From positions 1 through 33,338 of the IMG/VR virus record IMGVR_UViG_3300038701_003273: a DNA stretch of 33,338 nt; one strand, given 5' to 3'. The notes under the pieces were generated by a model. It did not search any database, had not been told where the DNA came from, and saw only the letters and a program-made list of their open reading frames with translations. A program made the translations under genes and the position numbers. Positions 5,428 through 23,163 of the stretch are shown one piece after another. This DNA is from a virus. Each line of letters starts with the position of its first letter. Position 1 is the stretch's first letter.

Positions 5428-5688
5428 CTACGTCGCGGCCTCGACGCGGACGCTGTGGCGCACCAGCACCGGAAGCCTGCGAGGACCGCGGCGACCGATC
5501 CACCCCTTGCGCTCCAGCGCCTCGAGGACCTGCTGCGCCGCGTTCGGCGAGCTCCAGCCCATGGCCTCGGCGATCTCTGCCCGCGTCGGCCAGTGCTGCG
5601 TGCGCTCGATCTGCTCGACCACGTAGTCGCGAACCGCGCGCTGGGTCGGCGTCAGTCCGTCGTCCTGCTCGTCCACGTCGGGCACCAT
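5428..5688 (-). CDS. LexA-type winged-helix DNA-binding protein (no protease domain)
   Basis: 86 residues from ATG 5688, chosen because GGGAG lies eight bases upstream. The sequence LTPTQRAVRDYVVEQIER, TRAEIAEAMGWSSPNA, then QVLEALERKGWI.R is a clear match to the N-terminal winged helix of LexA: helix 1, the helix-turn-helix (AEIAEAMGWSSPNAAQQVL) and the wing. The S24 protease half of LexA is absent, so it should not self-cleave. It is the last gene before the palindrome at 5391-5418 and overlaps the small Cys protein gene by 37 bases. Likely role: repressor or activator of late or lysis transcription, perhaps acting at that palindrome (inference). Confidence 0.75.
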   Translation of the reverse strand: MVPDVDEQDDGLTPTQRAVRDYVVEQIERTQHWPTRAEIAEAMGWSSPNAAQQVLEALERKGWIGRRGPRRLPVLVRHSVRVEAAT

Positions 5689-5849
5689 CGCCAATCTCCC
5701 GCCATCACCAGTCCGAGGGTCTGGCCCGCCGTGCATCGTGCGAGCCATGGATAGTCCGCGTGGTGCTGCGCGTGGGCGCAGGTGCTGCACTGCGCCTCGT
5801 CGCGGTAGCGGTCCGGCCAGGGGCGCTCAGCCGGCGCCGTAGGCGTCAC
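5652..5849 (-). CDS. Small cysteine-rich phage protein
   Basis: 65 residues with CSTCAHA, ARCTAG and WRWCP: four Cys arranged as CxxC...C...C, likely one zinc site or a small iron-sulfur-like knuckle. Its frame overlaps the upstream Q-position gene by 23 bases and the downstream wHTH gene by 37 bases, as is typical of compact phage operons. Similar tiny C..C..H proteins are common beside late regulators, but no function is established that I can name. Confidence 0.6.
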   Translation of the reverse strand: MTPTAPAERPWPDRYRDEAQCSTCAHAQHHADYPWLARCTAGQTLGLVMAGDWRWCPTWTSRTTD

Positions 5850-6254: not shown

Positions 6255-6773
6255 TCAGGTCGTCTCCGGTGTCCGGAACGGGCCGAGCTGCCAGTAGTCC
6301 AGAGCGATGCGCTTCGCGTGCTCGGCTCCCTCGGCGACGACGGCGAGATAGCCGTGACGCAGCAGCTTCGAGATCCACGCGAGCTGGTCGTCGCTGACCA
6401 CGCCGTCCTCGGCCTTCATTTCGATGCGCAGGCCGTGCCATGGGCCTCGGGCCACGTCGAACTGCAGGTCCGGGTAGCCCTTCCGCGCACCCTCGGCGTA
6501 CAGCTTCCCGGCGACGCCCTTTTTCCGGAGACCGCCGAGCGGGTTGCTCGTCATGCACTCCGCCAGCCCCGGCAGATGAATCTCCACCCAGCTGACGAAC
6601 TCCACCTGCTCGCGGTGCTCGCGATCGTCGCGCGGCGCCGAGGCCGCGCTCGAGGAGCTGCTCGTCGACGAGGACGTGCTCGTAGGGCGTGGCGACGCTG
6701 TGGCGCCGGGCTGCTTCGCCTCGACCTGGCGGCGCAGCGCCTCGGGCAACTCGCTGGCGTCGCGTACCCGCAT
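6255..6773 (-). CDS. VRR-NUC (PD-(D/E)XK) nuclease
   Basis: 172 residues, ATG sharing TGATG with the upstream DUF6378 gene. The nuclease core runs from about residue 52 to the end: EQVEFVSWVEIHLPGL, then GYPDLQF with Pro-Asp 101-102, then RIEMKAEDG with the E-x-K pair at 118-120, then DQLAWISKLLRHGYLAVVAEG. That is the VRR-NUC pattern found in phage and FAN1-type structure-specific nucleases. Residues ~24-45 are an unusual Ser/Thr-only linker joining a short N-terminal helix. The probable role is processing branched or flapped DNA during replication or recombination, in the place many phages carry RusA or NinG. An anti-host role is possible. Confidence 0.85.
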   Translation of the reverse strand: MRVRDASELPEALRRQVEAKQPGATASPRPTSTSSSTSSSSSAASAPRDDREHREQVEFVSWVEIHLPGLAECMTSNPLGGLRKKGVAGKLYAEGARKGYPDLQFDVARGPWHGLRIEMKAEDGVVSDDQLAWISKLLRHGYLAVVAEGAEHAKRIALDYWQLGPFRTPETT

Positions 6774-7171
6774 CAGGCCCCCGGCTTCGCGCCAGCGACC
6801 TCGGCGGCGCAGGCTGCGTAGCCGGCGAGATCGACCCAGCTGTCGGCGTGGGCAGGCGTCTGAGCTGCCCGGGCGAGCTTCAGCAGCGCCAGCATGGCCG
6901 CCACGTCCTCCGCATCGAGATCCGCGTCGCGACCTCGGGCACGAAGCCACCAGTTCCAGCCGTCCGCGATCCGGGCGAAGGACTCGTCGGGCGGGCCGTA
7001 GTCGTCTGCGCGCGCACCCGTGACCAGACGCTCCGCATCGCGGAGGACCATCTGCCGGATCGTGAGCGCCTCTCCGGTGGCTGGGTCGTGGTCGACGCCG
7101 GCCGCCGCCATGACGGCGCACCGCTCCTCGAGGGCGAGCTCGGCGTCGAGCTCCGCGCGGGACTGGCTCAT
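6773..7171 (-). CDS. DUF6378-family phage protein
   Basis: 132 residues. The pattern RLVTGARADDYGPPDESFARIADGW and, near the end, DVAAMLALLKLARAAQTPAHADSWVDLAGYAA is the recognisable core of the DUF6378 family. That family is found in many tailed phages near replication or nucleotide-metabolism genes. The DYG.P.E.F, LK..R and DSW.D..GY motifs look like a helical metal-binding pyrophosphohydrolase-like arrangement. That resemblance is my inference, and the family's activity is not established to my knowledge. ATGA overlap with the upstream nuclease and TGATG overlap with the downstream one. Confidence 0.8.
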   Translation of the reverse strand: MSQSRAELDAELALEERCAVMAAAGVDHDPATGEALTIRQMVLRDAERLVTGARADDYGPPDESFARIADGWNWWLRARGRDADLDAEDVAAMLALLKLARAAQTPAHADSWVDLAGYAACAAEVAGAKPGA

Positions 7172-7641
7172 CTGCGGTACCTCCGGATTGCGTCGATCAC
7201 CTCGGACGGCGGGAGCTCGATGTCTGTCCCGCGGTTGCGGTTCTGCGAGCGGCAGAGCGTCAGCAGGCGCTCGAACAGCTCCTTCTCGCGCGCCTTGCGG
7301 TGCGGGTGCGCGTGGATCCCGTCCGGGCCTTGGTGCTGCGCCCGGGTCAGCGGGAGGATCCAGTAGTGGCCGATCGCGACGCCCTCGTGGCGGGCCGTCC
7401 GGCCTGCGCAGTGGTGGATCTCCACGTTCGCGCTGCAGTTGATGATCGAGCCCAGGCTGCGGACGGCCTCGCGCCAGCGCAGCTCGCGAGCGTTCGGCTG
7501 CGAGATGCGGGAGCGCAGGCGCTGACCGCCGGCGGAGTACCAGGACGTCGGCAGGCGGTCGCTACCGATGCGCGAAGGAGTGGCGCGGACGGCGCGGCGG
7601 GCGCGCAGCGGGGTCTTCCGCTTCAGGGGCGTGCGCTTCAT
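7168..7641 (-). CDS. Ref-like HNH nuclease
   Basis: 157 residues. A very basic N-terminus (MKRTPLKRKTPLRARRAVR) precedes a core with EIHHCAGRTARH, HYWILPLTRAQHQGPDGIH and AREKELFERLL. This H-H...LPL...HHQ...GIH layout is typical of the phage P1 Ref (RecA-dependent nuclease) family and its relatives in many temperate phages, which nick DNA within RecA-bound structures. A basic N-terminus is also present in Ref. One member of the usual second His pair is replaced (AQHQ). Start at ATG 7641 overlaps the preceding stop (ATGA). A role in phage recombination is probable; strict RecA dependence is not shown by the sequence. Confidence 0.7.
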   Translation of the reverse strand: MKRTPLKRKTPLRARRAVRATPSRIGSDRLPTSWYSAGGQRLRSRISQPNARELRWREAVRSLGSIINCSANVEIHHCAGRTARHEGVAIGHYWILPLTRAQHQGPDGIHAHPHRKAREKELFERLLTLCRSQNRNRGTDIELPPSEVIDAIRRYRR

Positions 7642-8084
7642 CCGAACCGCACCTCCTCGAGGTCTTCGCCCTGCTCTTCGGCGCGGATCCGCTCGGCCGT
7701 GGCCTTGATCAGCCGCAGGCGCCACTCGAGGAAGCCCTCCGGGTCGTCGAGGGCATCAGGCGGGCCTGCGCGGCGGCGCTCGAGGCGGACTTTCGCGGGA
7801 CGGGCCGGCGCCGGGTCGGTCTCCGCCGCGGGCGCTTCGTCCGGCTCGGACGCGGGCGACGCCGGCTCGCCCAGCGCGACGCGCAGATCCGCCACACGGC
7901 GTGCATGCCGCTTCGGCTGCCGGACGTGATCGCCAGGCACGGCCGCCATGACGGACAGGTCGTGCTCGAGCTGGACGTCGAGCAGGGCCTGCAGCGATAC
8001 GCCCAGGGCGTCCGCCCACTCCTGCCGGGTGTAGCGGATGCCGCGCTCGCGCAGGAGGGCAATCGCTGCAGGCGTCACAGTCAC
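7638..8084 (-). CDS. Unknown protein with N-terminal HTH-like segment
   Basis: 148 residues from GTG 8084, which overlaps the preceding stop (GTGA). The first 45 residues (ALLRERGIRYTRQEWADALGVSLQALLDVQLEHDL) look like a helix-turn-helix. The centre is a low-complexity Pro/Ala/Glu linker, and the last 40 residues form a charged amphipathic helix (PEGFLEWRLRLIKATAERIRAEEQ). This could be a DNA-binding adaptor in the replication module, but I recognise no family. Confidence 0.6.
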   Translation of the reverse strand: MTVTPAAIALLRERGIRYTRQEWADALGVSLQALLDVQLEHDLSVMAAVPGDHVRQPKRHARRVADLRVALGEPASPASEPDEAPAAETDPAPARPAKVRLERRRAGPPDALDDPEGFLEWRLRLIKATAERIRAEEQGEDLEEVRFG

Positions 8085-11381: not shown

Positions 11382-11579
11382 TCAGGCGACGTTCTTCGAA
11401 CGAACAGGAAGGTCTTCGAACGAGAACCTCCCTTCGCTCAGCACGACGATCTGATAGGCGCGGAGTTCCGGAATCGTGTCGCCCCACGCCGAAACGGCCT
11501 GATGCGTCACACCAAGCGCGCGAGCGAACTTCGTCAGGCCGCCGAAGTGCTGCTGAACCTGTTCGAGGGTGACTTGCAA
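11382..11579 (-). CDS. cro: Cro-like repressor
   Basis: 65 residues from TTG 11579, with GGAGG nine bases upstream (11589-11593); no ATG fits this frame without extending through the operators. The sequence QVTLEQVQQHFGGLTKFARALGVTHQAVSAWGD is a helix-turn-helix of the Cro type. The final part, LRAYQIVVLSEGRFSFEDLPV, forms the beta-hairpin by which Cro dimerises. Length equals lambda Cro (66). It diverges from the CI-like repressor across an operator region, reads away from it and heads the replication operon. It should compete with the repressor for OR and favour lytic growth. Confidence 0.85.
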   Translation of the reverse strand: MQVTLEQVQQHFGGLTKFARALGVTHQAVSAWGDTIPELRAYQIVVLSEGRFSFEDLPVRSKNVA

Positions 11580-11594: not shown

Positions 11595-11682
11595 TTGGCT
11601 TGCGGAGAACGTAATGCAGGTTGCGAGAGAAGGCAATATAGATTGCGAGACAGAAAGCAGGCTTCCCGTAACCTCGCTTGCG
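11595..11682. promoter_or_regulatory. OR-type operator and divergent promoter region
   Basis: Between divergent cro and cI genes. Three direct TTGCG(G/A) elements at 11600, 11621 and 11643 are spaced 21-22 bases (two helical turns), and a fourth lies at 11678 over the repressor start. The middle one extends to the dyad TTGC-N8-GCAA (11621-11636). AT-rich AATATAGATT at 11635-11644 offers TATAGA as -10 for the repressor. On the minus strand, TTGCCT with a 17-base gap to TACGTT is a possible cro promoter. The repressor ATG has no evident ribosome-binding sequence. Confidence 0.7.
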
Positions 11683-12411: not shown

Positions 12412-13155
12412 CTAGTCGGCATCGTACGTGGCGCAGCGCGCTCGAGCTTCAGCGACTGCGGCGCTCGACCCCCTCAGGGGAACGTCGAAGTGCACTCGCC
12501 CCTCCCCGTACCAGTTCAGCTCCAACCGCACGACCGAAGACGCGATCACGCGCGAAATCGCGTCTTCTCGATCCGTATATGAGACGCGCAGGAACCGTTC
12601 CCCCCATTCCTGTGTAAGGCGCGTCTCCACGACCTCCTCGTCCCACCTCAGCCTCGTTCGGATCACGTTGTATCCGCTCTCCGTTTCGTCGTCGGCAATG
12701 TTCGGCTTTTCGGATGCCGCGAAGTAGATCCACTCTGAGTCGAAGTCACAGCCGACGTGCAGCGAGACCGTCACACGGCTGTACGGGAAATCCATTGTCC
12801 TCACAGCGGCGACACTCGGCGAGTTCGCGAAGGAGCTTTGCTTGCCTGTCATCTCGTCGGTGGACTTGTGTGACGTCCAGCGGGGAAGGGCGGGTTCTGG
12901 GGCGAGAGCCGAAGCCTTCGCCGGCGCAGAGCCCGCGACTGACGGGGCCTGAGCGGAAGGTGTCCGGGCGGCGCGTTGAGGAGGGGCTTCGAACGCCCCG
13001 TAGCCGACGAGCAGAACGCCGACAATGACCACCGCGAGCACGACGACCGGCGCGCAACCGCCCGAACCCCTTTTGACCGGGGCCCCGCATCGAGGACACG
13101 TCTCGGCCTTCGTGCTGACCTCTCCCTCGCATTCCTTGCACTTCGTCAGGGCCAT
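12412..13155 (-). CDS. Zinc-ribbon, single-pass membrane protein in the rex position (candidate lysogenic-conversion gene)
   Basis: 247 residues, ATG 13155 with GGAG seven bases upstream. Order: N-terminal zinc ribbon (CKECEGEVSTKAETCPRC, residues 6-23), a transmembrane helix (~34-53, VVVLAVVIVGVLLVGYGAF), a Pro/Ala linker, and a C-terminal domain of about 150 residues. That domain begins WTSHKSTDEMTGKQSSFA and ends in a pattern (VVRLELNWYGEGRVHFDV..GSSAAVAEARARC) resembling periplasmic VasI/TagO-like domains. The ribbon should be cytoplasmic and the last domain periplasmic. It lies between repressor and OL, where lambda has rexAB, but on the opposite strand, so it needs its own promoter near 13160-13290. 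Superinfection exclusion or host modification is plausible but unproven. Confidence 0.7.
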   Translation of the reverse strand: MALTKCKECEGEVSTKAETCPRCGAPVKRGSGGCAPVVVLAVVIVGVLLVGYGAFEAPPQRAARTPSAQAPSVAGSAPAKASALAPEPALPRWTSHKSTDEMTGKQSSFANSPSVAAVRTMDFPYSRVTVSLHVGCDFDSEWIYFAASEKPNIADDETESGYNVIRTRLRWDEEVVETRLTQEWGERFLRVSYTDREDAISRVIASSVVRLELNWYGEGRVHFDVPLRGSSAAVAEARARCATYDAD

Positions 13156-13239
13156 TCCCTAGCTCCGCTATTGCCACTGACCTATCTCACCGGCGACGTT
13201 CGAGAACTTCAACCGACGCGCACGACCGCCTGTCGGCCT

Positions 13240-13288
13240 CGCAACCCTTGTTGCGCAATCTTTGTTGACGTATCGCAATTCAAATTGC
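13240..13288. promoter_or_regulatory. OL-type operator region of the left operon
   Basis: CGCAA, the complement of the OR half-site TTGCG, occurs at 13240-13244, 13254-13258 (within the palindrome TTGCGCAA 13251-13258) and 13274-13278 (start of the dyad GCAATTcaAATTGC, 13275-13288). TTGACG at 13265-13270 is a good -35 for rightward transcription, although the -10 at 17 bases is poor. The site lies between the divergent zinc-ribbon membrane gene (13155) and the first left-operon gene (13335), so repressor binding may control both. Confidence 0.65.
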
Positions 13289-13334
13289 AGTCTGGTCTTA
13301 TCGAAAGCGCAGCAGCGCCAGAGGATGAGACTTG

Positions 13335-13658
13335 ATGACCCACGACCCACTCCCATGCCCCTTCTGCGGCAGCAACGACGTCCACGTGAACGGCATCGGC
13401 CAGCAGGTCGTGCGGTGCATGAAGTGCAGGTGCGAAGGCCCGGCGATCTGCGCGGCCGCCCCGGAGATCCAAGCACGCCTCAACCGCATCTCGCCCGCCG
13501 AGACGTGGATTCAGGCGCTGCGCCGATTCGCAATCGAGGCCTGGAACGCGGCGCCTCGACCGACCTTCCTGCAGACGATCACGTGCGGTGAATGCGGTGA
13601 CCAGGTCTCCGTCGAGGCCTGTCAGTGCGAGCGAGCGGCCGAGGAGGCTGCAGCGTGA
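13335..13658 (+). CDS. Lar family restriction-alleviation-type zinc-ribbon protein
   Basis: 107 residues from ATG 13335 with GAGG about ten bases upstream. The start LPCPFCGSNDVHVNG, then VRCMKCRCEGP and, after a spacer, AIEAWNAAPR, is the signature of the Lar/restriction-alleviation family: two CxxC pairs, then a W(N/A) motif. Lar of Rac prophage modulates host type I restriction. A second cysteine set near the C-terminus (CGECGDQ...CQC) is an extra zinc knuckle not present in short family members. It is the first gene after OL, so it is expressed early, which suits a protein that protects incoming DNA. The alleviation activity itself is inferred from the family. Confidence 0.8.
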   Translation: MTHDPLPCPFCGSNDVHVNGIGQQVVRCMKCRCEGPAICAAAPEIQARLNRISPAETWIQALRRFAIEAWNAAPRPTFLQTITCGECGDQVSVEACQCERAAEEAAA

Positions 13659-13867
13659 GCGCCCGCGTCGCCTCCCTGCCCTGCCCGTTCTGCAAGGGCC
13701 TCGACCTGAACCGCACGGCTGCGTTCATCGAATGCCTCACCTGCGGCGCTCGAGGGCCGCTGGCCGCTCAGGCAGTCGCTGACCAGCAGCGCCAGGCGCG
13801 GCACTGGAACACCCGGGCATGGCGGCCGAAGGAGGCGACGCGCTCGCCACGGCGGTGGGTGCGATGA
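13655..13867 (+). CDS. Second Lar-like zinc-ribbon protein
   Basis: 70 residues from GTG 13655, which overlaps the preceding stop (GTGA). It repeats the Lar pattern in short form: LPCPFCKGLDLNRTAAFIECLTCGARGP, then ARHWNTRA. It is thus a tandem relative of the gene before it rather than its continuation; the two share motif order but little other sequence. It may broaden or tune the same anti-restriction function, or act as a small nucleic-acid-binding protein. Confidence 0.75.
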   Translation: MSARVASLPCPFCKGLDLNRTAAFIECLTCGARGPLAAQAVADQQRQARHWNTRAWRPKEATRSPRRWVR

Positions 13868-14826: not shown

Positions 14827-15734
14827 CCCTGTTCCGCAACTTCCGCGTGTGGCAGCTCGACGCGCCCATCCGCGACGCGCTCGAAAGCGATCGGACCATG
14901 CAGCTCGAGGATGCGGTGTTCGCGCCGTGCGGCCCGGGCCAGGTCGAATCGATGGGCTGGGAGGAAGTGCTGCCCGAGCAGGGCCTGCGCCGGGATCTCT
15001 CAGACGCGGCGTTCCTGAAGGCGCGCATTCAGGAGCGCGTGCTGCCGTCCGCAGCGATCGCCGAGGTGCTCACCGATCGGATCGAAGAGGTCGAGGCCCG
15101 CGAGGGTGCGCCCGTGCGCGGTGCACGGCGCCGGGAGCTCGCTGACGAGGTCCGCGCATCGCTCATACCGAAGGCACCGCTGAAGTCCTCGAGGCAGTGG
15201 CTGTGCATCGATCACGAGCAGGCGCTCGCCATGGTCGACACCACGACGCTCGCGAGGGGCGAGGCGGTTCTCTCGATGCTCCGGGGCTGTCTCGGCAGCC
15301 TGCCGCTACGCCCGCTCGCCTTCGCGCACCCGCTCGACGGCGTGCTGACGGCCTGGCTGCGCACCGGCGATCTCCCGTCCGGGTTCTCGCTCGGTGAGTG
15401 GTGCGATCTGCAGCACCCGCAGGACACGGCGAACACCGTGAAGCTCCGCGGCCAGCAGCTCGACGAAGACGAAGTCCCCGCGATGCTCGACCGCGGCATG
15501 CGCGTCACGGCCCTTGAGCTGGTCTGGGAGGTCGACGCCGACGCCCCGCTGAAGTTTGTGATCGGCGAGGACGGATCGTTTCGGCGCGTGTCGGTGCCCT
15601 GGGAGTACGGCGGGGATCTCGACGTTGAGGACGAGGCGTCGCGCATGGACGCCGACCTGACGCTGGTCGTTCTGTCGATGCGGCGCCTGTTCGCGGCGCT
15701 GTTCCCTGCGCTGGGCGGGAGGGTCGTGGAGTGA
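14823..15734 (+). CDS. rdgC: Recombination-associated protein RdgC
   Basis: 303 residues, the normal length, starting at GTG 14823 (GTGA overlap). It begins FRNFRVWQL and contains DAVFAPCGPGQVESMGWEEVLP, close to the conserved RdgC N-terminal 'F.PCG..E..S.GWV.P' segment. Also present are QWLCIDHEQALAMVDTTT, SLPLRPL, FSLGEWCDLQHPQDTANTVKLRGQQL and the final LDVEDEASRMDADLTLV. RdgC forms a ring around DNA and limits RecA-promoted recombination in beta- and gammaproteobacteria. In a phage it could restrain the host RecA response or protect phage replication intermediates. It is a good indicator of a proteobacterial host. Confidence 0.93.
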   Translation: MTLFRNFRVWQLDAPIRDALESDRTMQLEDAVFAPCGPGQVESMGWEEVLPEQGLRRDLSDAAFLKARIQERVLPSAAIAEVLTDRIEEVEAREGAPVRGARRRELADEVRASLIPKAPLKSSRQWLCIDHEQALAMVDTTTLARGEAVLSMLRGCLGSLPLRPLAFAHPLDGVLTAWLRTGDLPSGFSLGEWCDLQHPQDTANTVKLRGQQLDEDEVPAMLDRGMRVTALELVWEVDADAPLKFVIGEDGSFRRVSVPWEYGGDLDVEDEASRMDADLTLVVLSMRRLFAALFPALGGRVVE

Positions 15735-21739: not shown

Positions 21740-22132
21740 TCAGCCCTTCTTGTTGACCCAGCCGGCGACGAGACGGTCGATCAGCTTCTGCACCTCTTCG
21801 ATCTGTCCTCGGCGCGCAAGCACGTAGACCAGTATCAGCTCGATGACGAGCACGCCGATCGCCGCCGCCCACGTCTGCATGTCATCGAGCAGGGCGTAGT
21901 TCAGCATCATCAGGGCGATCAGCTGCCACTCGAACACGGCCTCACGCTTCTCGTCCTGCAGTCGCGCTACGCGCTCGGAAAGATCCTCGATCGCGTCGTC
22001 CTTCGCGTCCTCGAGCTCCGCCGCGCGCTCCTGAAGTCCGCGCACCACCGCGGTGAGCCGCTCCGCCGAGATGTTCATGCTCTTCGGGGGCGGGCCGGGA
22101 TCTTCGTCCGGGGACTTCGGGTCACTCGTCAC
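21740..22132 (-). CDS. Small membrane protein coupled to Panacea gene, candidate toxin
   Basis: 130 residues from GTG 22132, overlapping the Panacea gene by 11 bases; ATG 22078 would give 112 residues. A Pro/Asp-rich N-terminus is followed by a coiled coil (RLTAVVRGLQERAAELED through RVARLQDEKREAV). Then come two hydrophobic helices (WQLIALMMLNYALL and AAAIGVLVIELILVYVLA) and a basic amphipathic end (VQKLIDRLVAGWVNKK). It is the last minus-strand gene before the attachment region. If the Panacea protein is an antitoxin, this membrane protein is the natural toxin candidate. It could also be an unrelated membrane protein. Confidence 0.6.
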   Translation of the reverse strand: MTSDPKSPDEDPGPPPKSMNISAERLTAVVRGLQERAAELEDAKDDAIEDLSERVARLQDEKREAVFEWQLIALMMLNYALLDDMQTWAAAIGVLVIELILVYVLARRGQIEEVQKLIDRLVAGWVNKKG

Positions 22133-22571
22133 CGAGCAGGCCTTCGTACTCGGCGAGGATGTCGGAATCGCGCAGGCGCACGTTCCGGCCGCGCTCGTAG
22201 GCAACGTCCCAGGCGCTTCCGTGAGAGTGGGTCAGCGCGATGAGCTGCGGGCCGCTCAGGCTTCCGAACAGGGCATGCCCCAGTTCAAGGCTCTGCTGCT
22301 GGACGCTCCCTTCCGGGGCGCCCTGGAAGCGGCGGAACACGTCGCCCACGGGCTCGGCGCCGAACGCCTTCACCTCGTGGTACACGGACGGAAGCACAGG
22401 GCCATAGGCCCATGCCTCGAAAGGCTCGTCGACGAGATGCTCGTGCCCCTCCGTTCGCCCCATGCAGACCATGTGCGAGAGATAGAGCAGCTTCTGTAGT
22501 TCGAGGTTCGATAGGCGCCAGCCCGCCAGCTGGCAGAGAGTCTTTGCTGCAGACAACGGGTGAATGGCCAT
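22122..22571 (-). CDS. Panacea (DUF4065/SocA-like) domain protein, probable antitoxin
   Basis: 149 residues from ATG 22571. It has the defining features: an N-terminal helical part WRLSNLELQKLLYLSHMVCMGR and, 20 residues on, FEAWAYGPVLPSVYHEVKAFG. Panacea (PanA) is an established antitoxin domain that neutralises many unrelated toxins, often encoded next to it; SocA, in the same family, is a proteolysis adaptor. Here the partner would be the overlapping downstream membrane protein. The pair stands apart from the tail operon and next to the attachment region, where phages carry cargo genes. The Panacea assignment is firm; antitoxin function is inferred. Confidence 0.85.
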   Translation of the reverse strand: MAIHPLSAAKTLCQLAGWRLSNLELQKLLYLSHMVCMGRTEGHEHLVDEPFEAWAYGPVLPSVYHEVKAFGAEPVGDVFRRFQGAPEGSVQQQSLELGHALFGSLSGPQLIALTHSHGSAWDVAYERGRNVRLRDSDILAEYEGLLGDE

Positions 22572-22623
22572 GATTCGCCTCCTCCGTCGCAAGTGCGCGG
22601 AGACTACCAGATCAAATCGAGTG

Positions 22624-22665
22624 GCGCCCCGGCCCGAGGGATCGCCGTGACGAGGGCCGGGGCGC
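22624..22665. repeat. Perfect 12-bp inverted repeat, structured intergenic element
   Basis: GCGCCCCGGCCC (22624-22635) and GGGCCGGGGCGC (22654-22665) are exact complements around an 18-base loop. No T-run follows on either strand, so it is not a classic intrinsic terminator. It fills much of the 220-base gap between the Panacea gene and the plus-strand lipoprotein gene, which diverge here. The remainder of the gap shows no ORF. Confidence 0.7.
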
Positions 22666-22791
22666 TGACGCTGAGCGGGTCCGCGAGCGTCAGGGGCAGT
22701 ATCCGCCACCAGCACCTGCGGCGTCTGTGGGTGATCTCTCGCGATCGTGTGCGCTATCGTCGGCTCGGGCCGATCACGGAGGAGAAAACCC

Positions 22792-23163
22792 ATGCGCACC
22801 AAGATGCTTGTCGCTCTGCTGAGCTTAAGTGGGTGCGCCTCGACGACGAACGAGATAACCCAAGGCGACCCGCTTGAGGTCTTCGAGATCACGGGGAACC
22901 CGGAAGCGGTTGCTCAGTGTATCGCGGGCGAGCACTCGGCGAGAGGTCTGCGCGTACCCACTACGACGGTAGACGTCCTGCGGCGCGCCGACTCCTGGGT
23001 GGTGCAGCTGTCAGGGTGCACGCTGATCGGTTGCAGCCTCGGGAAGTTCCCGGGTGGCGCGCTCGTCATCACCGAGGGGCGAATCGAGTCGCATCGCACG
23101 TTGGTATCGAAGTGGCATCGGGAGATGCCGGCGGTGCTTGAGGCATGTTCCGGCGCCACCTAA
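22792..23163 (+). CDS. Lipoprotein, isolated plus-strand accessory gene
   Basis: 123 residues from ATG 22792, preceded by a strong ribosome-binding sequence GGAGGAG (22778-22784, seven bases away). The signal peptide is short (MRTKMLVALLSLSGC) with lipobox LSGC, giving a mature lipoprotein with Ser/Thr after the Cys. The rest (~105 residues) has four Cys (QCIAG, GCTLIGC, EACSG) and a beta-rich core (DSWVVQLSGCTLIGCSLG). Its strand opposes the flanking late genes and it meets the last tail-operon gene with a 4-base tail-to-tail overlap. This isolation suggests a moron expressed from the lysogen, for example for surface modification or exclusion. Confidence 0.7.
   Translation: MRTKMLVALLSLSGCASTTNEITQGDPLEVFEITGNPEAVAQCIAGEHSARGLRVPTTTVDVLRRADSWVVQLSGCTLIGCSLGKFPGGALVITEGRIESHRTLVSKWHREMPAVLEACSGAT

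Follow-up and report, generated by a model that had tools for sequence, protein, structure and literature searches.

The stretch of DNA analysed here, called the window below, is an entire IMG/VR record of 33,338 bases from a lambda-like phage with genes for a DnaB helicase, a tape measure protein, tail protein J, an integrase, and an AlpA-type excisionase. Around the repressor, the order is a cro-like gene (-), OR, a cI-like S24 repressor (+), the open reading frame at 12412-13155 (-), OL, and the early operon (+) (Table 1). No family match was found for the cro-like gene. The order cro, OR, cI, gene, OL, early operon is identical in the sole close relative, L002 (IMGVR_UViG_3300001970_000365). 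The 12412-13155 frame is convergent with cI: the window has 15 bp between the two stop codons, which in L002 overlap. No terminator-like site was found between the two genes, and an Rfam search of the window gave no matches.

Among the other genes of this phage, the first gene of the early operon and the adjacent frame at 13676-13867 (+) both encode small zinc-ribbon proteins with weak matches to phrog_599 (Lar-like restriction alleviation). The same operon encodes an RdgC-like protein at 14832-15734 (+; PF04381, E 1e-64), and an RdgC-like frame was also seen by eye downstream in another locus discussed below (L078, 7952-9133, +). Near the integrase, a protein with a Panacea/SocA antitoxin domain (22122-22892, -; PF13274, E 4e-12) is followed by a small coiled-coil/membrane protein (about 21740-22078, -), and the two possibly form a PanAT-type toxin-antitoxin pair. 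A 120-residue protein at 5428-5790 (-) has a LexA DNA-binding domain (PF01726, E 2.5e-17) without an S24 peptidase match, and might compete with host LexA.

Table 1. Genes, protein parts, putative operators, and candidate promoters around the repressor (window positions)
Feature	Coordinates	Strand	Basis or remark
Cro-like gene, 65 aa, start TTG	11382..11579	-	Assigned from position and conservation in L002
OR operator (putative), GTAATGCAGGTTGC	11611..11624		2 mismatches
OR operator (putative), GCAATATAGATTGC	11633..11646		Perfect
OR operator-like site, GTAACCTCGCTTGC	11668..11681		3 mismatches; abuts cI start; spacing as in L002
cI-like repressor, HTH + Peptidase_S24, 237 aa	11683..12396	+	PF00717 E 2e-11; phrog_4 E 1e-42
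Zinc ribbon + membrane helix + linker + VasI/IalB-like periplasmic domain (predicted), 247 aa, ATG start	12412..13155	-	ORF, kept in L002
VasI/TagO-like (IalB fold) domain, residues about 89-245 (157 residues)	12421..12891	-	AF2, Foldseek, hhalign
Predicted membrane helix, residues about 35-54	12994..13053	-	Hydropathy 2.8 over 19 residues
Zinc ribbon, residues 1-30 (C6, C9, C20, C23), predicted cytosolic	13066..13155	-	Pfam, PHROG, AlphaFold
Candidate promoter toward gene, TTGAAG-N17-TGAGAT	13184..13212	-	Clear of OL; weak score
OL operator (putative), GCAACCCTTGTTGC	13241..13254		2 mismatches
OL operator (putative), GCAATCTTTGTTGA	13255..13268		2 mismatches
Candidate PL, TTGACG-N17-CAGTCT	13265..13293	+	OL-covered; L002 version TTGACA-N17-CAGTCT
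OL operator (putative), GCAATTCAAATTGC	13275..13288		Perfect
Candidate promoter toward gene, TTTCGA-N17-TTGAAT	13278..13306	-	Overlaps OL, would be repressed
First gene of divergent early operon, Lar-like	13335..13658	+	phrog_599 E 1.5e-7

The sequence-only reading had described the 12412-13155 frame as a protein of 247 residues with a zinc ribbon, one membrane helix, and an outer domain, and its exact coordinates and all three parts were confirmed. The protein begins with a head of the form M-A-L-x-K-C-x-E-C, CPxCG, and then the helix, which is its single strongly hydrophobic segment (37-55); the linker is rich in Pro and Ala. The N-terminal part matches PHROG 14275 and 38187, and AlphaFold gives pLDDT values of 71-78 over the zinc ribbon. 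The match to Pfam Zn_Ribbon_1 is weak in the window protein (E 0.008, under the cut-off); the L002 protein passes, with 28.1 bits against a cut-off of 25. The two proteins are about 75-76% identical, and dN/dS between window and L002 is 0.16 for the gene, about 0.10 for its C-terminal domain, and 0.16 for cI. Because the frame is conserved at this level in L002 with a low dN/dS, like that of cI, it is a real gene, and the substitution pattern indicates that its product is under purifying selection. We infer that the zinc ribbon lies in the cytosol and the VasI/IalB-like domain in the periplasm, since the cytosol suits a reduced zinc ribbon, the domain outside probably carries a disulphide, and some homologues have signal-peptide-like starts.

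The C-terminal domain has no direct family match in Pfam, NCBIfam, PADLOC, or PDB sequences; a tblastn search of phages with it gave no match, and neither the whole protein nor the domain alone reaches the curated cut-off of PF11319 (VasI/TagO). An alignment search with the window cI returned the L002 contig only, and queries with the D14O and Microcystis sequences found no window-type relatives. Relatives came from searching GTDB genomes for the DNA motif of the head and from profile searches of genomes and IMG/VR. Loci that share the outer domain, with an identity of about 40%, are L048 (Marinobacter), L049, L054 (Gilvimarinus), L071, L072, L077, L078, and L079.

With a five-sequence alignment, AF2 gave a confident model of the outer domain (pLDDT 79.4, pTM 0.78); a two-sequence alignment had given a pLDDT of 42 for it. 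Foldseek matched this model to IalB of Bartonella (PDB 3dtd, five chains; TM 0.52-0.65, probability 1.00), at a sequence identity of 14-19%. In hhalign, the domain matched a set of VasI sequences at 91.3% (E 9e-7 over 137 columns), against 1.4% for the control. A search of a Gilvimarinus genome with the domain profile found a signal-peptide-like VasI protein (E 9e-5, genome-wide), whose own Pfam VasI score is 44 bits. W93, C136, and C241 are common to the outer domain and VasI, as is a C-terminal helix, and the conserved C136/C241 pair is probably a disulphide. Signal-peptide-like versions of the domain occur in L079 and L070; behind its signal-peptide-like start, the L079 domain has lost both cysteines. 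The likeness to VasI/TagO-type domains, for which the earlier reading had pointed to structure prediction, is thus supported by the profile alignment and the IalB fold, with the Pfam match absent, and at the level of modelled fold and profile the outer domain is a divergent VasI/TagO relative. The homologues at L054, L071, and L072 lie on chromosomes, and no phage genes were seen around them, so the use of the domain is not confined to phages. At L072 (384-901, -, and 1588-2208, -), the homologue has an in-frame TAG, lies near small toxin-antitoxin-like frames (YefM/YoeB-like by eye), and is perhaps in a mobile cassette.

The gene lies in a rex-like slot between cI and OL and is oriented against cI, as had been read from the window, but the position of its relatives elsewhere would let them share the transcript of the repressor. 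Same-domain genes directly follow S24 repressors in two further phage lineages. In the Marinobacter-type L048 and L077, the same-domain gene lies 33-34 bp after an S24 repressor on the same strand; in L078, it lies 53 bp after a different S24 repressor, again on the same strand; and many relatives in other phages lie 13-63 bp after the repressor, on the repressor strand. A VasI-type gene directly follows a repressor in L070, and Labrenzia phage vB_LagS-V1 has another at a distance of two genes from CI. In other words, judged by gene order, the family is normally placed for co-transcription with the repressor, and the window shows an inverted form of this arrangement. In the Marinobacter phage of L048, the zinc-ribbon gene is followed on the repressor strand by a ClpP-like SDH-type protease (6698-7690, +; PF01972).

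The head motif was also surveyed by itself. Among the matches listed, 80 IMG/VR loci carried it, in 63 clusters at 50% identity; the sample is non-random, and of the eight repressors used to build the repressor model, most adjoin such head-motif genes. Of these 80 listed loci, 23 have a detected S24-type repressor and 57 have none detected. In all 23, the repressor is upstream on the same strand, and in 17 of them (16 clusters) it lies within 450 bp; random genes of the same loci gave 2.24 ± 1.42, with a maximum of 8 in 2000 draws. Among the genome loci, 3 of 28 have an S24 repressor. The convergent layout of the window is absent from all listed survey loci.

The outer domains found after a repressor include VasI proper in L089 (PF11319 above cut-off), an OB-type domain in L094 (PF12869; phrog_8545, E 1e-25), DUF4875 in L113, and several further domains. 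The L094 domain is "superinfection exclusion Sie-like" in the annotation of PHROGs, and it is a domain other than that of the window. P2-like and other phages carry head-motif genes elsewhere, so the repressor slot is preferred and not exclusive. In P2-like phages (L003 4001-5231, L004, L037), a separate zinc-ribbon membrane gene and then a VasI/TagO gene form a two-gene unit after gene D, possibly a split version of the same design. In the tail region of a Klebsiella phage (L006 4001-4669, L098), the zinc-ribbon head is fused to a Sie-like OB-type domain (phrog_8545, E 2e-23). These sequence comparisons point to a modular phage class, in which a near-constant zinc-ribbon/helix head carries exchangeable outer domains and often directly follows an S24 repressor. 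No account of zinc-ribbon exclusion proteins beside repressors was found in the open-access literature.

What such a protein does in the lysogen might have nothing to do with other phages. It could convert the host envelope, a VasI/TagO- or IalB-like periplasmic protein altering secretion, stress tolerance, or the surface. The fold match to IalB, the profile match to VasI, and the chromosomal homologues are in keeping with this idea, as is the fact that Pfam names VasI proteins as type VI secretion proteins. However, none of the type VI secretion genes searched for was seen in the window, and a recurrent repressor-side placement combined with a fast-changing outer domain resembles phage conflict, not one host function. 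We regard envelope conversion as unlikely.

The control of the gene has to be read from the operators. A 14-bp palindrome, GCAATNNNNATTGC, has two mismatch-free copies in 33 kb, at 11633 (OR) and 13275 (OL). The spacings between successive operators, 22 and 35 bp at OR and 20 and 14 bp at OL, are identical in L002. What supports the assignment is that two copies are perfect, that the sites cluster, and that their spacing is conserved; the total count does not, being at chance level over the whole window (7 matches at up to two mismatches, with 6.2 expected); L002 has 5 matches at up to one mismatch, against 0.09 expected. Putative operators at 13241-13288, spaced as in L002, support the original placement of OL upstream of the zinc-ribbon gene, in the gap between it and the early operon. 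Promoter-like sites toward the gene within OL score 5.3 and 4.8 in the window and 8.0 in L002; for comparison, 97.5% of random stretches from the window stay under a score of about 5.0. The top-scoring site in L002, TTGAAA-N16-CAGATT, likewise overlaps its OL, and the L002 counterpart of the OL-free site is TTGCTC-N17-TGAGAT. Because promoter-like sites are found both inside OL, where they would be repressed, and outside it, where they would not, the repressor could turn the gene off or on.

The convergent layout also occurs in a Microbulbifer prophage (L064), with an unrelated repressor and a D14O-type outer domain, so the inverted arrangement of the window and L002 is recurrent. In L064, operator palindromes, ATAAYTATARTTAT, are present at both ends (5 at up to two mismatches, against 0.04 expected), and the best promoter-like site toward the gene, TTGACA-N16-AATTAT, lies over the operator at 5474-5487. 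Between gene and repressor is a terminator-like hairpin (6371-6392), which would end transcription of the gene short of the repressor; this layout therefore does not always come with antisense read-through into cI. One could imagine a switch in which antisense transcripts between the gene and cI contribute to the lysis-lysogeny decision and the protein matters less, and the close or overlapping stops of the window and L002, with no terminator-like site between the genes, would suit it. Nevertheless, the L064 hairpin downgrades antisense control of cI, purifying selection at the protein level is strong, and we consider such a switch very improbable.

The overlap with OL of the best promoter-like sites in the window, L002, and L064 is an objection to a role in the lysogen, since a bound repressor would shut the gene off there, against an exclusion function. 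The gene could then be an early-lytic one, silenced from OL along with PL, whose product acts at the envelope just after infection or on induction, for example by excluding late-coming phages or aiding takeover. Its start adjoins PL and it faces away from PL, which favours this reading. On the other hand, AT-rich palindromic operators by themselves give promoter-like matches on both strands, the weak OL-free site is kept in both the window and L002, and in other lineages the relatives stand where they could be expressed together with the repressor. An early-lytic role seems to us on the unlikely side.

We return to superinfection exclusion. The gene is best seen as an accessory of the lysogeny module encoding an inner-membrane protein, and exclusion is its most likely job, to which we would give an even chance; it is suggested by the slot, by the exchange of one outer domain for another, and by the Sie-like member. 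Expression in the lysogen would follow from the placement of the class, not from the promoter region of the window. Against exclusion, PADLOC models gave no convincing match to the window protein. The gene is inverted here, starting beside OL and running toward cI. In the mechanism that we propose, a periplasmic domain held at the membrane would block the entry of an incoming phage. The block might act on phage DNA, on a tail protein that is injected, or on some host protein that entry requires, and the zinc ribbon may be a cytosolic anchor or a partner-binding patch. We also put forward, tentatively and with some doubt, that repressor-linked transmembrane proteins are an unrecognised modular class, in which a fixed cytosolic zinc ribbon and helix would carry swapped periplasmic sensor or blocker heads as a general platform for exclusion or sensing, and in which the inverted form would be controlled by the repressor from OL as cI is from OR.

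Repressor-side genes are those through which a silent prophage can change its host, and, since relatives recur in this slot in many unrelated phages, the resident phage probably alters or protects its host through this one. With the head motif, shared across many unrelated phages, one can gather proteins that may act in exclusion or conversion and whose outer domains differ widely. Because an inverted form exists in nature, regulation of such genes by the repressor itself can also be examined, and VasI/TagO-like domains may have a role outside type VI secretion.

Compared with known systems, the outer domain has its nearest solved fold in IalB (PDB 3dtd). With VasI/TagO (PF11319), it shares the profile-profile match, the Trp, the Cys pair, and the C-terminal helix; it differs in being anchored by a membrane helix and zinc ribbon, with no signal peptide and no direct Pfam match. 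The protein of Pseudomonas Detrevirus phages (vB_PaeS-D14O DBA08798.1) has the same head, one helix, and an outer domain with a phrog_1848 match (E 4e-6), and its gene also lies downstream of cI. However, that gene is on the cI strand with two frames between, overall identity is 28%, and the outer domains are weakly alike. In lambda, the rex genes lie between cI and OL. The window gene resembles rexA and rexB in position only, with no family match found between its product and those of the rex genes; it is a single gene on the strand opposite to cI and so is not co-transcribed with it. The window protein would also resemble HK97 gp15, an inner-membrane exclusion protein, and P22 SieA, all being phage-encoded membrane proteins of the prophage state; the resemblance drawn here is one of type and setting. 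SieA is likewise an inner-membrane exclusion protein (PMC11436027), and lysogen-expressed exclusion genes beside repressors are already known, for example olg1 of Fc02 (PMC9936078).
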